Of a DNA stretch of 56,072 nucleotides, positions 1,222-52,690 are shown in pieces. The DNA comes from Lachnospiraceae bacterium (GTDB lineage: Bacteria > Bacillota > Clostridia > Lachnospirales > Lachnospiraceae). The notes beneath the pieces are model-generated. The model was not told where the DNA came from and did not search any database. It saw only the letters and a list, made by a program, of their open reading frames with translations. Location of the stretch: assembly GCA_910575605.1 (NCBI GenBank), contig CAJTEW010000021.1, forward strand, positions 1 through 56,072, read 5' to 3'. Position 1 is the first letter of the stretch. The number at the start of each line of letters is the position of its first letter. A program made the translations under genes and the position numbers.

Positions 1222-1302
1222 TTGGGGACGGGGTAAAATTAAAAAGTGCCTGTCCCTGCCTAGGCTGGGGACAGGCACTTTTTAATTTTACCCCGTCCCC
1301 AA
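1222..1302. repeat. REP-like long hairpin (copy 1)
   Basis: A perfect inverted repeat with 35-base arms and a loop of about 11 bases. The outer arm is TTGGGGACGGGGTAAAAT and the inner arm ends GTGCCTGTCCC. It lies between the start of the cotS-like gene and the end of cca, about 5 bases from the cca stop codon, where it could terminate cca transcription. The outer sequence matches the short hairpin family associated with the RAYT transposase at 2.7 kb. The GTGCCTGTCCC inner arm is shared with the copies at 31549 and 22006. Confidence 0.9.
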
Positions 1303-2666: not shown

Positions 2667-2745
2667 TTGGGGACGGGGTAAAATTAAAAATACTCCGTCC
2701 CAGATTGAAATTACCCTGTCCCAAATTTCTACTTACCCTGTCCCA
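2667..2745. repeat. REP-like hairpin, left end of RAYT unit (copy 2)
   Basis: The core is at 2670-2701, GGGACGGGGTA paired with TACTCCGTCCC; one position is G opposite T, the only imperfect core seen. It is followed by CAGATTGAA and two CCCTGTCCC tails. The last residues and stop codon of the transposase gene (2729) lie inside this repeat. The cca gene starts just outside it. Confidence 0.85.
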
Positions 2746-3505
2746 GCTCGCTTTCTATTACTTTTCTTATATCTTTAATATATCTCTGTGAAATATTAAA
2801 CCTTTCTCTAAGCCTCTCTTCAAATTTCTTTCTTGTCTTTGCATAGTCCAAAATTTCTTCTTCAGGAAGCTTCAACTCATACTTCATATCCTTCAAAACT
2901 TCTTTTGCAATTTCTTTTCTCTGCCAAAGCTCCTCTTCCGGCATGCCAATAAAAAAGTCCCTATCGCTTAGCTTATGGAAATCCATAAAATCCCTGCTCG
3001 TTTGAAACCGTTTTTCATACATTCCATATGCAGCATCCGATAAAATCTTTTCTTTTCCTTTCTCTGGATGGTTATATTCTCCCACACTGCTCTGCACATA
3101 ATCCTCAATGCTTTTACACATTCCTGCTTTTACCGGATTTAAATGAATATATCTCAAGCAGCTCCAAAAATAACTTCCGTTTTCAATACACTGGCTCTTG
3201 AATCTGCCTTGAAACACATATCCGGTTCTATTATGTTTATAATTATAATAATGGGCAAAACTGGCTATGATTTTCGCCATAAAAGATGCAAGTTCTTTTA
3301 ACTCTGCTTCTAATAACAAATGAAAATGATTAGACATAATACAATATGCATAGACTTTTATATTGTATTTTTCATAGTTTTCTCTGATAAGATTTAATAT
3401 TCTTGTTTTTTCTCGTTTATCCTGAAAAACTGCTATCTTATTTAAACCTCTTACTACTACATGATAGCAGTTTGTTGCACTTTTCTGTCTCGGTCTCCTT
3501 GGCAT
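2729..3505 (-). CDS. REP-associated tyrosine transposase (RAYT, Y1/HUH family)
   Basis: A 258-residue protein of the IS200/IS605-like Y1 transposase superfamily, in the RAYT (TnpA_REP) branch. The HUH metal-binding motif is NHFHLLLE (His60 and His62). The conserved block YIHLNPVKAG (about 119-128) probably holds or neighbours the catalytic tyrosine, an assignment made from the family and not proven. The N-terminal YHVVVRGLNK and FQGRFKSQ blocks are also typical. A C-terminal extension (about 190-258) ends in a helix-turn-helix-like stretch, FNISQRYIKDIRK. It starts at an ATG behind GGAGGGAG. Such enzymes cleave single-stranded DNA at REP hairpins; here the hairpins that bracket the gene and recur across the window are the natural substrate. 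Its last residues (GQGK) come from a repeat tail. Confidence 0.88.
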   Translation of the reverse strand: MPRRPRQKSATNCYHVVVRGLNKIAVFQDKREKTRILNLIRENYEKYNIKVYAYCIMSNHFHLLLEAELKELASFMAKIIASFAHYYNYKHNRTGYVFQGRFKSQCIENGSYFWSCLRYIHLNPVKAGMCKSIEDYVQSSVGEYNHPEKGKEKILSDAAYGMYEKRFQTSRDFMDFHKLSDRDFFIGMPEEELWQRKEIAKEVLKDMKYELKLPEEEILDYAKTRKKFEERLRERFNISQRYIKDIRKVIESELGQGK

Positions 3506-3523
3506 TCTCTCCCTCCTTTTAAG

Positions 3524-3602
3524 AGGGACAGGGTTAATCCAATTTGGGACAGGCTTTTTTCAATCTGGGACGGAGTATTTTTAATTTTACTCCGTCCCCA
3601 AA
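3524..3602. repeat. REP-like hairpin, right end of RAYT unit (copy 3)
   Basis: Two GGGACAGG tails precede a perfect hairpin core at 3567-3598 (GGGACGGAGTA paired with TACTCCGTCCC) and a terminal CCCCAA. It mirrors copy 2 across the transposase gene. It also lies 8 bases past the proS stop codon, where its A/T-flanked stem could terminate proS. Confidence 0.85.
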
Positions 3603-5049: not shown

Positions 5050-5374
5050 ATTTCCTCTCCTTTTCTCCTTACGGGCATTAGCCCTTGCTATTGTCTGTCG
5101 GGAGTATTGCCGCCCAGGTAAATTTAGAAAAAACACCGGGCTCTCACTCCCCATAAGGGACCGAAAAGCTCGGCGGTACCACCCTAGTTAACTGCCCATC
5201 CTGTGCAGTTCCCTCAACAACCGTTAACGCCGGCAAAACGCTGCGCTTTCACACAGAGGCTCCAAGGCGGGTTCTATACAAGTTTCAGGCAGAAATCTCA
5301 CACCCTCTGATTTCCTCTCTGACGCCCACTTACATATACTATTCCTCTTCATAGCCAATTCATATTAGAATTTA
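5050..5374 (-). ncRNA. T-box leader of proS
   Basis: On the minus strand the leader carries the diagnostic T-box sequence AGGGTGGTACCGCC (5172-5185), followed by a stem and a run of U before the gene. An AGAGAGG element and a long stem I region lie nearer the promoter. A CCC/CCG triplet in TAGAACCCGCC is a possible proline specifier, but its position in the specifier loop was not proven. Binding of uncharged tRNA-Pro is expected to stabilise the antiterminator and allow proS transcription. Confidence 0.88.
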
Positions 5375-5444: not shown

Positions 5445-5592
5445 ATATAGAAAAAACCGGAAAAGACATTCCAGTGAATTGGCTAACGAATTTGTATTGA
5501 CAAATATATTATAGCACAAATTTTTCATATTGCATATTTACCAAATACATGCTTAAATAGTAAAAGCAAGCAAAATGGAGGAAAGAAATCTT

Positions 5593-6330
5593 ATGAAACC
5601 CGCATGGTTACAGGCTTTTCACGAGGATGAGCACATTTTTGTATGTCTCAAACCGCCTCAAATTGCAACACAATGTAGCAAAGTCGGCAGTCCTGATATG
5701 GTTAGTTTAATTAAAAATTACCTTTTTACGTCCCATAATCTTTCCAAAGAACCTTATTTAGCCGTCATCCACCGGCTTGATCAGCCAGTTAGTGGAATCA
5801 TTGTATTTGCCAAAACACCTTTTGCCGCAAAGGAATTAAACAAGCAATTACAAACCCGTGGTTTCGGAAAATATTACCGTGCATTAGTAGACGGAACTCC
5901 CGCAAAACCCGAGGGTGTATTAGAAAATTATCTTGTAAAAGACAGCAGAACAAATATCTCCATGATTTGTTCCCCGGATACACCCGGTGCAAAATTTGCA
6001 CGCCTCTCATATAAAACCGTCAAAAAGGGACAGGGTATTTTCAATCTGGGACGTAGTATTTTTAATTTTACTACGTCCCCAACTGAGGTTGAGGTATGTT
6101 TGGATACGGGGCGGCACCATCAGATACGTGTCCAACTCGCCGGATATGGATGTCCCATCATCGGCGATACTAAGTACAATCCCACTGCTTCACGAGCAAA
6201 GCAATGGCAGAATATCTGCCTGTGCGCATACAGGCTGGAATTCTGCCATCCAAAAACTAGGGAACCTATGCATTTTGAAATTCCAGACATAGGGACAGGG
6301 TTAAATGAATCTGGGACGGGGTATTTTTAA
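5593..6330 (+). CDS. RluA-family 23S/tRNA pseudouridine synthase carrying repeat insertions
   Basis: A 245-residue protein of the RluA/RluD family, which isomerises uridine to pseudouridine in RNA. The catalytic motif HRLDQPVSG lies near residue 60, and the conserved TGRHHQIRVQLAG block follows later. Two copies of the hairpin repeat lie in the frame. One (6027-6082) encodes about residues 145-163, inserted in what is normally a short turn before the strand leading to TGRHHQIR. The second (6292-6347) supplies the last dozen residues and the stop codon. Both catalytic blocks are intact and the frame is kept, so the enzyme may still work; this is inference. The start is ATG 5593 with GGAGG 11 bases upstream; the ATG at 5575 overlaps that site. 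The exact RNA target cannot be assigned. Confidence 0.85.
   Translation: MKPAWLQAFHEDEHIFVCLKPPQIATQCSKVGSPDMVSLIKNYLFTSHNLSKEPYLAVIHRLDQPVSGIIVFAKTPFAAKELNKQLQTRGFGKYYRALVDGTPAKPEGVLENYLVKDSRTNISMICSPDTPGAKFARLSYKTVKKGQGIFNLGRSIFNFTTSPTEVEVCLDTGRHHQIRVQLAGYGCPIIGDTKYNPTASRAKQWQNICLCAYRLEFCHPKTREPMHFEIPDIGTGLNESGTGYF
6027..6082 (+). repeat. REP-like hairpin inside a coding sequence (copy 4)
   Basis: A 56-base copy: a GGGACAGGGT tail, CAATCT, a core at 6048-6079 (GGGACGTAGTA paired with TACTACGTCCC), then CCAA. Read in frame it adds about 19 residues (starting GQGIFNLGR) to the pseudouridine synthase. Confidence 0.9.
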
Positions 6331-6347
6331 AAATACCCCGTCCCCAA
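6292..6347 (+). repeat. REP-like hairpin at a shared 3' end (copy 5)
   Basis: A 56-base copy in the same orientation as copy 4, core 6313-6344, perfect stem with an A/T-rich centre. It provides the C-terminus and stop codon (6328-6330) of the pseudouridine synthase and ends 10 bases before the stop of convergent spoVG. It may act as a two-way terminator. Confidence 0.9.
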
Positions 6348-6356
6348 CTTGTCAGC

Positions 6357-18572: not shown

Positions 18573-18692
18573 TTGGGGACGGGGTAAAATTCAAAATACC
18601 CCGTCCCAGATTGAATTTTCCCTGTCCCCAATCATGGGGACACCCTTTTCCCCATCTGGGACGGGGTATTTTGAATTTTACCCCGTCCCCAA
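18573..18692. repeat. Paired REP-like hairpins, BIME-like (copies 6a and 6b)
   Basis: Two copies in opposite orientation, with tails facing each other: core 18576-18607 and core 18658-18689. Tails read TTCCCTGTCCCC and GGGGACACCC. Both cores are GGGACGGGGTA paired with TACCCCGTCCC. The layout equals the RAYT unit with the transposase gene removed, like a bacterial interspersed mosaic element. It fills the gap between asnS and the response-regulator start. Confidence 0.9.
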
Positions 18693-31191: not shown

Positions 31192-31566
31192 ATGGCATTT
31201 AAAATGGTACATGAGAACTATAATGTGGCAGATCTCGACAAATCAATGAATTTTTATGAGAAGGCACTAGGACTTCACGAGCTGAGGAGAAAAACAGCTT
31301 CGGATGGCAGTTTCATTATCGTTTATATGGGAAATGAAGAAACTGGCTTCGAACTAGAGTTGACCTGGCTTCGTGATATGGATCGGCCATACAACCTAGG
31401 AGACTGTGAATTTCATCTGGCATTTTCCACAGATGATATGGACAGTGCTTACAAAAAACATAAAGAGATGGGCTGTATCTGCTATGAAAACCCTGATATG
31501 GGAATCTATTTTATTGCTGACCCGGACGGATACTGGTTAGAGATTGTAGGGGACGGGGTAAAATGA
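31192..31566 (+). CDS. Glyoxalase I-like VOC protein
   Basis: A 124-residue vicinal-oxygen-chelate protein close to lactoylglutathione lyase. It starts with MVHENYNVADLDKSMNFYEK and has FELELTW and DPDGYWLEIV, which carry the metal-binding Glu residues of the family. A role in methylglyoxal detoxification is likely but the thiol cofactor is unknown. AAGGAGG precedes the ATG. The last five residues (GDGVK) and the stop codon are encoded by a hairpin repeat (31549-31624), so the native C-terminus has been replaced or trimmed. Confidence 0.87.
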   Translation: MAFKMVHENYNVADLDKSMNFYEKALGLHELRRKTASDGSFIIVYMGNEETGFELELTWLRDMDRPYNLGDCEFHLAFSTDDMDSAYKKHKEMGCICYENPDMGIYFIADPDGYWLEIVGDGVK

Positions 31567-31624
31567 GAAAGTGCCTGTCCCCTGCCAGGGTAGGGACAGG
31601 CACTTTCTCATTTTACCCCGTCCC
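31549..31624. repeat. REP-like long hairpin supplying a stop codon (copy 8)
   Basis: A near-perfect inverted repeat with arms of about 32 bases (GGGACGGGGTAAAATGAG through GTGCCTGTCCC). It matches copy 1 except for a few bases that change symmetrically in both arms (TTAAAA against TGAGAA). It ends the glyoxalase gene and lies 4 bases from the stop of the convergent lipase gene. Confidence 0.9.
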
Positions 31625-31628
31625 AGCT

Positions 31629-35787: not shown

Positions 35788-35804
35788 TTTTTCCTCCTTA
35801 GACA

Positions 35805-35836
35805 GGGACGGGGTATTTCTAGAAATACCCCGTCCC
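35805..35836. repeat. REP-like hairpin core (copy 9)
   Basis: A solo 32-nt core with a perfect stem (GGGACGGGGTATTTCT and its complement), flanked by CCAA on one side. It lies just upstream of the tatD ribosome site, which is unusual because most copies lie at gene 3' ends. Confidence 0.88.
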
Positions 35837-35988
35837 CAATTTAATAATAGACTTCCTCTCAACAATCGGGCAGGAAATGGTATACAATAATTAAAACAAT
35901 CATCAAACAAATTTTACTTTTCATAATTCGTTTTTCTCTTCATAATTTTATACATTTCTCAAATTTTTATCGCTAAAAACAGCAAAGC

Positions 35989-36606: not shown

Positions 36607-37042
36607 ACTTAATCCTCCATAAATCTATTATTTCATCTGCTCTAATATATCTTGACATGCTTCTTTCTTTTGAAACAATTCTTCATAATAATAATCTGAT
36701 GCATTCTATTTTTTTATTTATATTATCTTGAATTCTTAAAAGTTCTTATTTGCCCTTTGTTTTAAACAAATCTTGATAATCTCATTTCATTAATTTTTTT
36801 AATTATAACATTTCTTCAATATAAAAACCACCAGATTATCATTATCATATCTAATGGTTTTTATTTCTTTCCTACATTTTCTCCTTTCCTTATAACGCCG
36901 TCAGGCTCATCAAGTTGGACTATTATTTTCATTTGTTGCTCCAATTATATTAAAGTAATATTTTATACTTTGAAAATATATGATATAATCACCTTGGCTT
37001 TATTAGAATCTTATACATTTAGTGAAAGGAAGGATCATAACT
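36607..37042. other. A/T-rich 436-bp gap with a decayed reading frame
   Basis: No intact gene is seen. On the minus strand, short protein-like stretches in different frames suggest an eroded gene just upstream of fic (see the pseudogene entry at 36628). The ddh promoter must lie in the right part, but no clear match was found. Confidence 0.4.
36628..36705 (-). pseudogene. Remnant of a small gene upstream of fic
   Basis: Reading 36705-36628 gives 25 codons (ending KKEACQDILEQMK, then stop) with no start codon. Just upstream in another frame is ELLRIQDNINKKIE. Together they look like one small helical protein broken by a frameshift and stop codons. Its identity is unknown; a former partner of fic is possible. 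Confidence 0.35.
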
Positions 37043-38029
37043 ATGGATAAAATCAGAATAGGGATTGTTGGATACGGTAATATCGGGCGCGGAGTTGAAC
37101 GCGCAGTTTTTAGGAATAAGGATATGGAACTTAAAGCTGTATTTACAAGGAGAGAACCAGCCTCTATAAAAATCGAAACAGACGGGGCTGTGGTAAAGCA
37201 TATGGATGACCTATCTTCCATGAAGAATGAGATTGACGTCATGATATTATGCGGCGGATCTGCAACTGATCTCCCGGTTATGGGACCACAGCTCGCGGCA
37301 GATTTTAACACTATTGACAGTTTTGATACTCACGCCAGAATTCCAGAATACTTTGCAAATATGAATAAAGCGGCAAAAAAGGGCGGAAATGTCAGCATTA
37401 TCTCTGTGGGCTGGGATCCAGGAATGTTTTCACTGAACCGTTTATATGCGGAATCTATTCTGCCACAGGGAAGTACCTATACCTTTTGGGGAAAAGGTGT
37501 AAGCCAGGGGCATTCTGATGCAATCCGTCGTGTAAAGGGTGTAAAAAATGGAATCCAGTATACCGTTCCAATTGAGAATGCCGTAGAGCAGGTAAGAATC
37601 GGAAGTGAACCAGTACTGACGACAAAAGACAAGCACTTAAGAGAATGCTATGTGGTGCCGGAAAAAGGAGCAGACTTAAAAGCAATTGAAGAGGCGATTA
37701 AAACAATGCCTAATTATTTTGATGAGTATACTACAACAGTCTCATTTATTACTGAAGAAGAACTAAGGGAAAAACACAGTAAGATGCCCCATGGAGGTTT
37801 TGTAATCCGAAGCGGTGAAACAGGAAATACCGGAAACAAGCATATCATCGAATACTCTCTTAGGCTGGACTCCAATCCAGAATTCACAGCAAGCGTACTT
37901 CTTTGCTATGCAAGGGCGGCCTGCCGTCTGGCAAAAGCCGGAGATATCGGCGCAAAAAGCGTGTTTGATATTGCGCCAGGACTTTTGTCAATGAAAACAG
38001 CAGACGAATTAAGAAAAGAAATGCTTTAG
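37043..38029 (+). CDS. ddh: meso-Diaminopimelate dehydrogenase
   Basis: A 328-residue NADP-dependent enzyme that makes meso-diaminopimelate in one step from tetrahydrodipicolinate and ammonia, serving lysine and peptidoglycan synthesis. It has the nucleotide-binding IGIVGYGNIGRGV, VGWDPGMFSLNRLY and WGKGVSQGHSDAIRRV blocks specific to this family. The start is the ATG at 37043 behind AAGGAAGGA. It is a single gene ended by a hairpin repeat. Confidence 0.95.
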   Translation: MDKIRIGIVGYGNIGRGVERAVFRNKDMELKAVFTRREPASIKIETDGAVVKHMDDLSSMKNEIDVMILCGGSATDLPVMGPQLAADFNTIDSFDTHARIPEYFANMNKAAKKGGNVSIISVGWDPGMFSLNRLYAESILPQGSTYTFWGKGVSQGHSDAIRRVKGVKNGIQYTVPIENAVEQVRIGSEPVLTTKDKHLRECYVVPEKGADLKAIEEAIKTMPNYFDEYTTTVSFITEEELREKHSKMPHGGFVIRSGETGNTGNKHIIEYSLRLDSNPEFTASVLLCYARAACRLAKAGDIGAKSVFDIAPGLLSMKTADELRKEML

Positions 38030-38040
38030 TAATTCTCCAG

Positions 38041-38094
38041 GTATTCAATCTGGGACGTAGTATTTTTAAAAATACTACGTCCCAGATTGAATAC
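38041..38094. repeat. REP-like hairpin, fully symmetric (copy 10)
   Basis: A perfect 54-base palindrome (arms GTATTCAATCTGGGACGTAG onward) with core 38052-38083. The CAATCT flank, normally on one side, appears on both, so it looks like two half-elements fused. It lies between convergent ddh and the chemoreceptor gene and could terminate both. Confidence 0.9.
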
Positions 38095-38107
38095 GTTGAA
38101 GCTTGTC

Positions 38108-39694
38108 TTACAAATCCTCAAACACTTCCATTTGTTTTTTCAGCTCTCCCACAATATCCCTGTTGATATCCATACGTCCTGTAATATCTTCCATATCCTC
38201 AACCAGACTTTTGGTACTTCCTGCAACACCTGTAATGCCTTCTGCACCTTCATCGATAGCCTTTGCAATGCTGCCTATAGAATCTGCAATCTCAGCCATA
38301 GAGCCTCTGAGCCTGTCAGTTCTGCTATTAAATTCGTCTATCTTTTGCTCCACATAATCCGCATCTTCTTTATACCGCCTTCCCGAATTTACAAATTCCT
38401 GGAATTCCATGAGAATCGTTCCACTCAAATAATCTGCCATATCCTGTGAGTGTCTGGAAAGATTATGCACTGCACTTGTAACAATCTCATTAACCTCCTG
38501 AATCCGTCTGGCTGTTTCACCGCAGGAATCTGCCAGATTTCTGATTTCTTTTGCCACAACCGCAAACCCCTTTCCTGCCTCGCCGGCACGCATTGCCTCT
38601 ACCGAAGCATTGATTGCAATCAAATTAGTAGAAGACGAAATAGACATAATATCCTTTGTCAGACTGTTTACCTGGCTCACACTCTTACTATCCTCAATGG
38701 CTTCCTCAAGCACCGCTAAAATGTCTGACGCCTTCCTCCTTATAACTTCTGCATTAATCTGCGCAGTTTCCTCCATATCACTTGCCCTCTTCTTCATTTC
38801 AGAAGAATAATCCATAATCGCACTGCATTCCGCGGCCATATTATTCACATCGTCTTTGACATCCGAAGCGCTGCTGTTAATAATCACCGAATTACTTGCC
38901 ACTTTCTGAATAGCTGTCGACAAAGACTCTGCAAGAGAAGACAGCCCTCTGGCACTTTCTCCGGACGTACGCGTACGTTTTAGTACTTCTCCAGCCACGT
39001 CCTCAAGCTTTTTCGAGCTCTCCTGAAGTGTATCCACCGTACCTTTGATAGGTGTTATAACATACTTTTTAATAATTCCTATAGCAGCAAGCACAAGAAG
39101 GATACCCGTCACAATAAATACCGCTGTTATAACAAGCGATAGTATGTATACTGCCATAAGCTTTTTTCTTGCGCTAGTTGTCCGTGTACTGACCCCTTCA
39201 TGAAGCTCATTCGTACCGCTTTCTATAGCCGCCCCAAAGTCAGCCACAGCTCCGTTAGCATATTCATATGCGTCCTGTGTCCTACTGTCCGCACTTGCGC
39301 ATACCAGATAAACCAACGCATGTTTAAAAGATTCGTAATCTTTCAGCAGCTGCTCATAGATTTTTTCCTCTTCTTCGGTGACATAATCTCCATATTCCTT
39401 AAGGGCGGTTTCCAGAGCTTCCTCCTCGTCTTTAATCTGTGCCACAACCGTAATCATAGTATTATAGTCCGTGGCTACAATATGTGAGAGAGCCAATTTA
39501 TGTATATTTACAGTTGCATGACGTATATTCTGTAATTTTTCTGAACCCACCATATTGTTGTCTACAATCCCCGAAGCATTAGAATTCACATTATTAATAC
39601 TGAAAACAGACAGGATATTCGATATCAGCGCTACAACCCCCAGAAGAATAATAGGCAGTATCAGACGCTGCTGTATACTGAGCTTTCTTTTCAT
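38108..39694 (-). CDS. Methyl-accepting chemotaxis protein
   Basis: A 528-residue chemoreceptor with two membrane segments (about 13-35 and 192-217), an outer four-helix-type sensor domain between them, a HAMP-like region and a cytoplasmic signalling coiled coil. The conserved hairpin tip is recognisable around residues 350-380 ([30 protein letters not shown]). The start is the ATG at 39694 behind GGAGG. It lies 74 bases after a sugar-binding lipoprotein gene on the same strand, so the two may be co-expressed and the lipoprotein may present ligand to the receptor. Confidence 0.9.
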
Positions 39695-39768
39695 TTTGTA
39701 CCTCCACATTCCCAAATCCGAAAATATTGACACCTCATCGGTAATGCCGCTTCAAAGCAGCTGTGGCA

Positions 39769-40998
39769 CTATCTTGCCGTTACACCCTCCACCATACGGT
39801 CCATCTGGTCTTGCAGGCTCTCCCCGGAAGGGTTTCCTGCCGCCATACTTGCTGCAAATGCCGCAACTGGATCCCAGAATTTTCCTCCTATCCGCTGGAG
39901 CTGAGCAAACTCTGACTGCTCAATAAGCGCGGCAATTGCGGGAGACTGCTGAATTTCCTCAGACGAGGCGACCACTGTATTTGACGGACCCTGCCCGCGC
40001 ATTTCAAATCGAAGCTTTTGATTCTCCTCGCTGGTAACCCACTCCGCAAATCTGGCTGCCCACTCCGGATATTCGGAATAAGCATTTACACCGATTAACT
40101 TACAGCCGGAAAAAGAAGCCATCTGCACTTGACGTCCGGCACAGGTATAGGTAGGTAGCTTCGCCGCACCCATATTTTCTCCCCATACCTCCTCTATCGC
40201 AACTGCATTCCAGACACCGCTTACACCCGCTGCTACAGAACCATCTCTTACACCATTCACAAACTCTGTGTCTGTCCGGCTCATAAAACTGCCGCTTCCT
40301 GCAATCTGAAGCATAGCCTGTGCCACATCCACACCCCGGATGTCTCCCTCTGCCTGATTCCATGTACAGAAGTTTGTAATCCCGTCATCATTAAGCCCTG
40401 CCTCAAGGCCCGTATTTCCGAAAAAGGCATACACATACCATGCCGAAGACCAGTCCATTAGAAAAAGCTTATTATTTCTTTCGGCAATTTCTAATATTTT
40501 GTCCAGTGTCCTTATGTCCTCTTCTGAAAAATACTGCTTATTATAATATAGAAAATACCCGTTATCTGACGTCAACGGATATGCATACAACTCGTCTCCT
40601 ACCGAAGCTGCATCCACCGCACCTGGAAGATTGTTATTTTTTATCTCCTCCGCATTTTCAATCGGATCCAGCGCTCCAGCCGCCGCCAGCGCTTTCAACT
40701 GATCATCTGCAAAGGTAAACACGTCCGCGCCCTCTTCCAGACCGCCAATCAGAGCATCCTTGCAGGATGATTCACTCTGCACCTCAAAGGCAATCTGAAA
40801 ATCCGCGTCATTCCCATACTCTGCCTGGAAGCTCTTAATAAGCATGTTCATAAGCTCCGTATCCTCCTCAGCCCCCCAGACTGTCAGCTCCACTTTCTCT
40901 TTTTTGTCCTCGGTCCCCTCTTCCTGTGGCCCCCCGCATCCTGTCAATGCTGCCGTACAAAGAATCCCTAAAAATATTCCCCAAATTCTTTTTTTCAT
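39769..40998 (-). CDS. Sugar-type extracellular solute-binding lipoprotein
   Basis: A 409-residue family 1 solute-binding protein (MalE-like). The signal peptide ends in the lipobox LTGC (Cys21), so it is a membrane-anchored lipoprotein. YAYPLTSDNGYFLYYNKQYF is the typical ligand-cleft block. No permease genes are adjacent. It could supply an importer elsewhere energised by the MsmX/UgpC-like ATPase at 50.5 kb, or serve chemotaxis through the receptor encoded next to it. Confidence 0.88.
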   Translation of the reverse strand: MKKRIWGIFLGILCTAALTGCGGPQEEGTEDKKEKVELTVWGAEEDTELMNMLIKSFQAEYGNDADFQIAFEVQSESSCKDALIGGLEEGADVFTFADDQLKALAAAGALDPIENAEEIKNNNLPGAVDAASVGDELYAYPLTSDNGYFLYYNKQYFSEEDIRTLDKILEIAERNNKLFLMDWSSAWYVYAFFGNTGLEAGLNDDGITNFCTWNQAEGDIRGVDVAQAMLQIAGSGSFMSRTDTEFVNGVRDGSVAAGVSGVWNAVAIEEVWGENMGAAKLPTYTCAGRQVQMASFSGCKLIGVNAYSEYPEWAARFAEWVTSEENQKLRFEMRGQGPSNTVVASSEEIQQSPAIAALIEQSEFAQLQRIGGKFWDPVAAFAASMAAGNPSGESLQDQMDRMVEGVTAR

Positions 40999-41112
40999 CT
41001 GTACTTTATCCTCTTTCTGTTATATCTAAATAATGTTATTTAAACGTTCATATTATAACATGTCATGCAGCCCACAGCAATGGTAAACACAGTACAAATC
41101 AAATTTCTGCAA

Positions 41113-41180
41113 ACTGCAATCCGGGACGTAGTAAAACTAGTTTTACTACGTCCCGGATTGCAGTTCTCCCTGTCCCCAAT
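41113..41180. repeat. REP-like hairpin (copy 11)
   Basis: A perfect 52-base palindrome (41113-41164, arms ACTGCAATCCGGGACGTAGT) with core 41123-41154, followed by a CCCTGTCCCCAAT tail. It lies between the lipoprotein gene and the end of metG and could terminate metG. Confidence 0.9.
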
Positions 41181-52626: not shown

Positions 52627-52652
52627 CCTTGCACCTCTTTCATATCGTTAAG

Positions 52653-52690
52653 TTGGGGACGGGGTATTTTGAAAAATACCCCGTCCCCAA
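52653..52690. repeat. REP-like hairpin (copy 12)
   Basis: A 38-base near-perfect palindrome (arms TTGGGGACGGGGTATTTT) with core 52656-52687. It lies 4 bases from the murA stop codon and could terminate murA ahead of rsmI. Both ends carry the terminal TTGGGG/CCCCAA. Confidence 0.9.

Follow-up and report, generated by a model that had tools for sequence, protein, structure and literature searches.

A gene for a REP-associated tyrosine transposase (RAYT) lies near the start of a 56,072-nt contig from a Lachnospiraceae bacterium (the whole of this stretch is referred to here as the window), and repeats resembling those at its two borders are scattered over the same DNA. The locus bears on how REP-type repeats multiply and on why RAYT genes persist in a single copy. 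The reading that we put forward, to which we give about an even chance, is that of a single-copy, vertically inherited RAYT of the TIRYT type with derived palindromes; the RAYT would rewrite resident copies in place. What is new here is the observation that the repeat sites are mostly fixed, with core sequences that turn over together within each genome.

The RAYT Protein

The RAYT comprises a catalytic domain (residues ~1-130) and a helical C-terminal domain (~185-258). Its HUH motif is NHFH (residues 59-62), and its Y---NP signature lies in YIHLNP (119-124). H60, H62, Y119, N123 and P124 were invariant in one alignment (A1, n = 13 sequences); in another (A3, n = 29), H60, H62, Y119 and P124 were invariant and N123 was present in at least 90%. 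A preliminary description, made from the DNA alone, had taken the protein for a Y1/HUH transposase because of these two motifs, and the assignment was borne out by the motifs themselves and by matches to Pfam Y1_Tnp (E 3e-11) and NCBIfam REP_Tyr_transpos, the latter barely passing (80.1 bits; cut-off 80). A PDB sequence search gave no match at E 0.001, and by fold the protein was nearer to TnpA-REP than to IS200 TnpA, the nearest solved fold being 4er8. With the C-terminal domain, Foldseek gave no match below E 0.001, and similarity to DnaA domain IV was not detected using a profile built from 11 of 24 fetched DnaA loci (the other 13 were missed by the motif used for selection). This domain would be the candidate for DNA binding.

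The host genome (G000; 3.81 Mb, 92 contigs, 97.9% complete) encodes a single Y1 protein, as judged by searches with the RAYT itself and with Pfam Y1_Tnp. The single gene copy, the synteny described below and the fold led us to reject a plain IS200 element with other ends. Carriage as plasmid or phage cargo was also rejected: at E 1e-10, RAYT matches occurred in 11 of 72,556 plasmid records and 1 of 50,697 phage records, none spanning 80% of the protein in a single stretch and all below 60% identity.

Repeat Copies in the Window and the Genome

The repeat core is a 32-nt pattern, GGGAC-N3-GTA-N10-TAC-N3-GTCCC. Allowing up to three mismatches, it matched the window 14 times at 11 sites (10 exact matches and 4 with three mismatches; Table 1), as against 0.04 expected, a count reached by 0 of 100 shuffles; GGGACAGG matched 12 times as against 1.2 expected. 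The earlier estimate of about 13 copies in 56 kb was therefore right, and the genome-wide count that had been proposed as a check, now run, gave 82 exact cores in the host genome and none for the reversed control. Together, the shuffles, the expected counts and the empty reversed control rule out chance repeats. The opposite orientation of the repeats bracketing the RAYT also held (2667-2727 and 3541-3601, 93% complementary). At the gathering threshold, the only Rfam match in the window was a T-box leader (5153-5361, minus strand, upstream of proS); there was none at the repeats, for which a known RNA family was thus ruled out.

Table 1. RAYT gene and repeat elements in the window
Feature	Position	Strand	Remarks
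75-nt near-perfect palindromic pair	1222..1302		32+11+32; other forms at this site in five other species
Downstream end of RAYT unit	2667..2744		Core 2670-2701, then two tandem boxes ending 2722 and 2744 (steps 21 and 22 nt)
Y1/HUH transposase-like protein (RAYT, TIRYT-like)	2729..3505	(-)	258 aa + stop (without stop 2732-3505); intact
Upstream end of RAYT unit	3525..3601		Core 3567-3598, preceded by boxes at 3525 and 3546
End-type repeat, in frame within RluA-family-like ORF	6027..6085		ORF 5575-6330 gains ~19 residues
End-type repeat over 3' end and stop codon of RluA-family-like ORF	6292..6349		
Two facing ends without gene (REPIN/MITE-like)	18573..18692		
Second 75-nt palindromic pair	31547..31627		Position not mappable in other species
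Single palindrome	35802..35842		
Single palindrome, at rearrangement breakpoint	38045..38091		
Single palindrome and one box	41117..41176		Right border of 3-kb segment, which G005 lacks here
Single palindrome	52650..52690		

A second form of the repeat, the 75-nt palindromic pair (32+11+32), occurred at 38 further places in G000 beyond the window, of which 32 fit a strict two-core pattern and six carry point differences. This pair is amplified in G000, with fewer matches in G005 and, at that identity, none among the matches listed for G001-G004.

Anatomy of the Ends

An end of the RAYT unit consists, from outside to inside, of the 32-nt core, with its GGGAC...GTCCC arms, followed by GTCCC boxes in the same orientation. 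We examined this arrangement in 32 RAYT loci, i.e., the window, three others of the genus, 27 of the best family matches and one named Dorea MAG. A core was present at one or both ends in 20 of them, giving 39 ends altogether. In these the inverted boxes were spaced, start to start, by 27 nt (31 ends) or 28 nt (8), and 47 of 53 tandem steps were 21 nt (36) or 22 nt (11). Arms ended in CGTCCC in 76 of 78 cases and tandem boxes in TGTCCC in 48 of 48. Neighboring core starts in the fetched segments of the genus lay 64 (nine cases), 43 (seven), 82 (one) or 83 nt (one) apart. Since 21 nt corresponds to two turns of B-DNA, the tandem step suggests that the boxes may be bound by protein as double-stranded DNA, besides any recognition of the hairpin.

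At the hairpin foot (194 feet of 97 cores), the last three bases were TTG in 113 and TCT in 35, and the fourth base back was A in 109 and G in 74; the foot reads mostly [AG]TTG or ATCT, rather than the GT[AG]G of canonical REPs. The outer RAYT ends read GGGGACGG, differing from the TIRYT motif GGGGWSAS at the seventh base, and the inner boxes of the window, GGGACAGG, lack the motif's fourth G.

The arms of the 75-nt pairs covary. In 40 distinct pairs of G000, positions 8/68 were paired in 95% (49% when shuffled), 16/60 in 97% (56%) and 18/58 in 100% (71%); other stem positions were mostly uninformative because they hardly vary. Covariation was weaker in 59 distinct single cores: pairing exceeded the shuffle at 7/26, 8/25, 10/23, 11/22 and 15/18, did not do so at 6/27, 9/24 and 16/17, and fell short of it at 12-14/19-21.

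The Repeats Co-occur with the RAYT

A comparison of genomes with and without the RAYT, also proposed in the preliminary description, was carried out on 397 genomes of the family, with a RAYT match threshold of E 1e-3, and showed strong co-occurrence. A RAYT match was found in 87 genomes, the end pattern in 18, and both in 17. Thus, 17 of 18 pattern-bearing genomes had a RAYT, as against 70 of 379 others (Fisher p 2.4e-11, treating related genomes as independent), and the pattern was missing from 309 of the 310 genomes without one. The reversed control gave single matches in four genomes. The sole genome with the end pattern and no detected RAYT (G236) is 82% complete; the pattern-positive count includes G297, whose matches are not clean palindromes, and the low-copy genomes G109, G327 and G356. 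The end pattern was not found in 70 of the 87 RAYT-bearing genomes, which likely use other box words. Within some genera one word is shared among the boxes listed, e.g., GGACATGTCCC in most listed boxes of G020 and G344.

In the genus of the host, the RAYT gene was present in all six genomes, and interrupted in two (G003 and G005). The exact core pattern occurred in five of the six; G002, the remaining one, combines the end pattern (26 + 23 matches) with a variant core. G003 and G005 carry 81 and 64 exact cores, respectively, despite the interrupted gene.

Repeat Sites Are Mostly Fixed across Six Species

In all six genomes of the genus, the RAYT lies at one place beside proS, in a syntenic block whose main matches to the window show 76-86% identity. 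Its neighbors are genes for a CCA-adding enzyme, for ProS and for an RluA-family-like protein, the last scoring below the model's cut-off. In a genome of another genus, G040, the RAYT lies ~2 kb from an rluA-like gene.

The other repeats are nearly as stationary. Four repeat sites other than the RAYT ends, all within the first 20 kb, were occupied in all 20 site-by-genome comparisons with the five other species, and a fifth site, on another contig, was occupied in 5/5. Mapping by flanks, applied to every fetched segment, placed 65 of the 79 elements in at least one other species and left 14 unmapped. Of 258 directed comparisons, 241 showed a core at the corresponding position, three showed only a box, and 14 showed neither. 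The empty comparisons fall at five sites, in G000, G003 or G005. These five sites, each boxless in one lineage, and the three box-only comparisons indicate that repeats are sometimes gained or lost; none of the five sites showed a clean insertion border.

Element form varies between species at one and the same site. Between G001 and G004, which are ~95% identical, a core was present in all 30 flank-mapped directed comparisons. This served as a control for 16 aligned sites that had been chosen where both genomes have a core in order; among these, monomer faced dimer at three (one with poor flanks) and a partial unit was seen at one. At two G001/G004 sites (25157 and 61332), the cores differed as a block on both arms, with near-perfect flanks. 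Of five 75-nt pairs looked at, two were mappable, i.e., the one at window position 1222 and C22:23242 (from a 19.5-kb stretch with three pairs, only one of which mapped in other species); both occupy sites that bear other forms in the five other species.

The RluA-family-like ORF (5575-6330, plus strand) contains one in-frame repeat, and its 3' end lies within another. The ~19 residues encoded by the in-frame repeat are common to the six species and G040. Among 28 aligned RluA-like homologs from other genera, the repeat-encoded stretch was present in one (that of G040), and two had different insertions there.

Cores Evolve in Concert within Each Genome

At 12 orthologous sites, cores differed by 3.13 mismatches in 22 nt from copies at other sites of the same genome, by 4.38 from their orthologs and by 4.72 from copies at other sites of other genomes. 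With the RAYT ends excluded, the values were 3.15, 4.89 and 4.95. None of 2000 label permutations reached the observed difference between within-genome and ortholog comparisons, and the result held without G004, a near twin of G001. Orthologs were more divergent than within-genome copies in 13 of 15 genome pairs. The two exceptions were the closest pairs, G001/G004 (1.71 for orthologs, 3.20 within genomes) and G000/G005 (3.57 and 4.12), so core replacement is slower than these splits, which fits a replacement that takes time. In every genome the repeat within the rluA-like ORF has the core of that genome, with the reading frame kept, e.g., TTTCTC in G003, the most homogeneous of the six genomes (40% identical core pairs). 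With cores nearer to same-genome copies than to orthologs, at mostly shared sites, the repeats appear to be overwritten in place.

Relation to Known Systems

The nearest known kind is the TIRYT/TIRtron, subclass 2.1. In the literature searched, TIRYTs are treated in two papers, Di Nocera 2013 (PMC3733652), which describes TIRtrons, TIRYT proteins and the dispersed TIR families that go with them, and Quentin 2018 (PMC6006769), in which 20 of 26 TIRYTs are placed in subclass 2.1, TIRYTs are equated with RAYT group 1 (citing the Bertels 2017 numbering) and no REP-like sequences are reported near subclass 2.1 genes. TIRtrons share with the present system a RAYT-like protein with a C-terminal extension, flanking inverted repeats with a GGGGAC-type motif, and dispersal of the same repeats through the genome (82 exact cores here), some in dimers. 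They differ in that the ends here are composite, with phased boxes and a 32-nt near-perfect palindrome, and in the host: "Clostridi" and "Firmicutes" have no occurrence in the main text of Di Nocera 2013 (figures aside), whereas our case is from the Lachnospiraceae. In contrast to the finding of Quentin 2018 for subclass 2.1, repeats adjoin the RAYT here; no DnaA-C domain was detected.

The system has several features of the canonical REPtron/REPIN systems of E. coli, Pseudomonas and Stenotrophomonas. Its RAYT gene is present once and is passed on vertically, its hairpins are dispersed and also occur as inverted doublets, a short motif is conserved at their 5' foot, and the nearest solved fold is 4er8. 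It departs from the canonical systems in the sequence of the foot, in its extra tandem boxes and in having an AT-rich center instead of a short fixed loop. The initial reading as REP/RAYT thus stands insofar as a RAYT accompanies a dispersed repeat family, but the repeats are not canonical REPs. With IS200/IS605 elements it shares the Y1/HUH chemistry expected from the motifs, and hairpins near the ends; it differs in having one gene copy at a constant place in six species and a fold nearer to TnpA-REP. Nunvar 2013 (PMC3686654) proposed an "orthoswitch" of REP classes at orthologous RAYTs, in which new REP variants likewise emerge at a RAYT in conserved synteny, spread, and may displace some of the older ones; in that model the original REPs stay and decay, whereas here the resident sites carry new sequence.

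The system had been billed as a candidate for an undescribed one. Its kind is known, as set out above, but we found no report of this repeat family in the Lachnospiraceae, or of fixed-site overwriting, in a literature coverage that was partial and makes such absence weak. The finding extends RAYT-linked palindromes to the Lachnospiraceae, a major gut family. Near-frozen sites with sequence turnover in one clade allow copying to be told apart from movement.

How the Repeats May Be Rewritten

E. coli TnpA-REP cleaves and recombines single-stranded REPs (PMC8266576), and it is from this enzyme that we borrow the cleavage and strand-transfer chemistry. By analogy, the RAYT would recognize its own boxes and hairpins, nick single-stranded hairpins at the foot, presumably during replication, and join strands between copies. 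At their old sites, resident repeats would then be rewritten, lengthened into pairs or shortened to monomers, and insertion at new sites would be rare. That the RAYT is a homing-like strand-exchange enzyme, rewriting palindromes in place (the copy in the ORF included) and so causing concerted evolution with little movement, is a proposal that we make tentatively, rating it somewhat below an even chance.

The main fact against rewriting driven by the RAYT is that G003 and G005, in which the gene is broken, retain many copies, and that G003 is the most homogeneous genome. Perhaps the gene was broken recently, or perhaps homogenization does not depend on it. The same fact favors the idea that the RAYT spread the elements long ago and that host recombination or template switching homogenizes them now, by short-homology gene conversion and palindrome correction. 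Arm covariation (0.95 paired at 8/68 as against 0.49 when shuffled, 40 pairs) would be an outcome of palindrome correction, and the dimer-to-monomer differences resemble deletion between direct copies. On the other hand, the homology available is just 30-80 nt, and the tight link to the RAYT over 397 genomes would need a separate cause; we consider this explanation possible, if rather unlikely.

Ordinary MITE/REPIN transposition, with favored target sites, independent re-invasion of each species and loss of old copies, seems improbable. It would account for genome-specific cores, for sites empty in one lineage and for the 75-nt pair with its 38 further copies in G000, fewer matches in G005 and none among those listed for G001-G004; but the repeat in the rluA-like ORF lies at an identical site and codon frame in six species, a repeat was shared in 20/20 site-by-genome comparisons, and both mappable 75-nt pairs (of five) lie where the five other species also have a repeat. 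We think it very improbable that the repeats are functional hairpins (terminators, mRNA stabilizers or chromosome-binding sites) kept by selection, with the RAYT incidental. Positions are conserved, the palindromes are stable, and at least two window copies (6292 and 38045) sit between convergent ORFs, yet one copy is in frame within a long ORF, form and core vary freely at one site, repeat presence tracks the RAYT, and the repeats have no Rfam match at the gathering threshold. As to rewriting in place by the RAYT, the natural RAYT-positive and RAYT-broken sister species allow a direct test of repeat spread.

Other Segments near Repeats

At window 37022-41160, a diaminopimelate dehydrogenase gene lies near repeats, and its orientation relative to its neighbor differs in G001-G004. 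Between the palindromes at 38045 and 41117 lies a 3-kb segment with chemotaxis-receptor-like and sugar-binding-protein-like genes; G005 lacks this segment here. At the join that replaces it there (L212, 1126-1221), G005 has a palindrome of box units with 47-bp arms and a 2-nt center. G001 has a 162-nt insertion (L124, 12482-12643) that is not in G004 and contains no GGGAC or GTCCC box. Positions 1-124, at the contig start, form a repeat identical to stretches in four other contigs of G000, at least two of which are at contig ends (start of C48, end of C22), and the assembly probably broke here at a repeated element.
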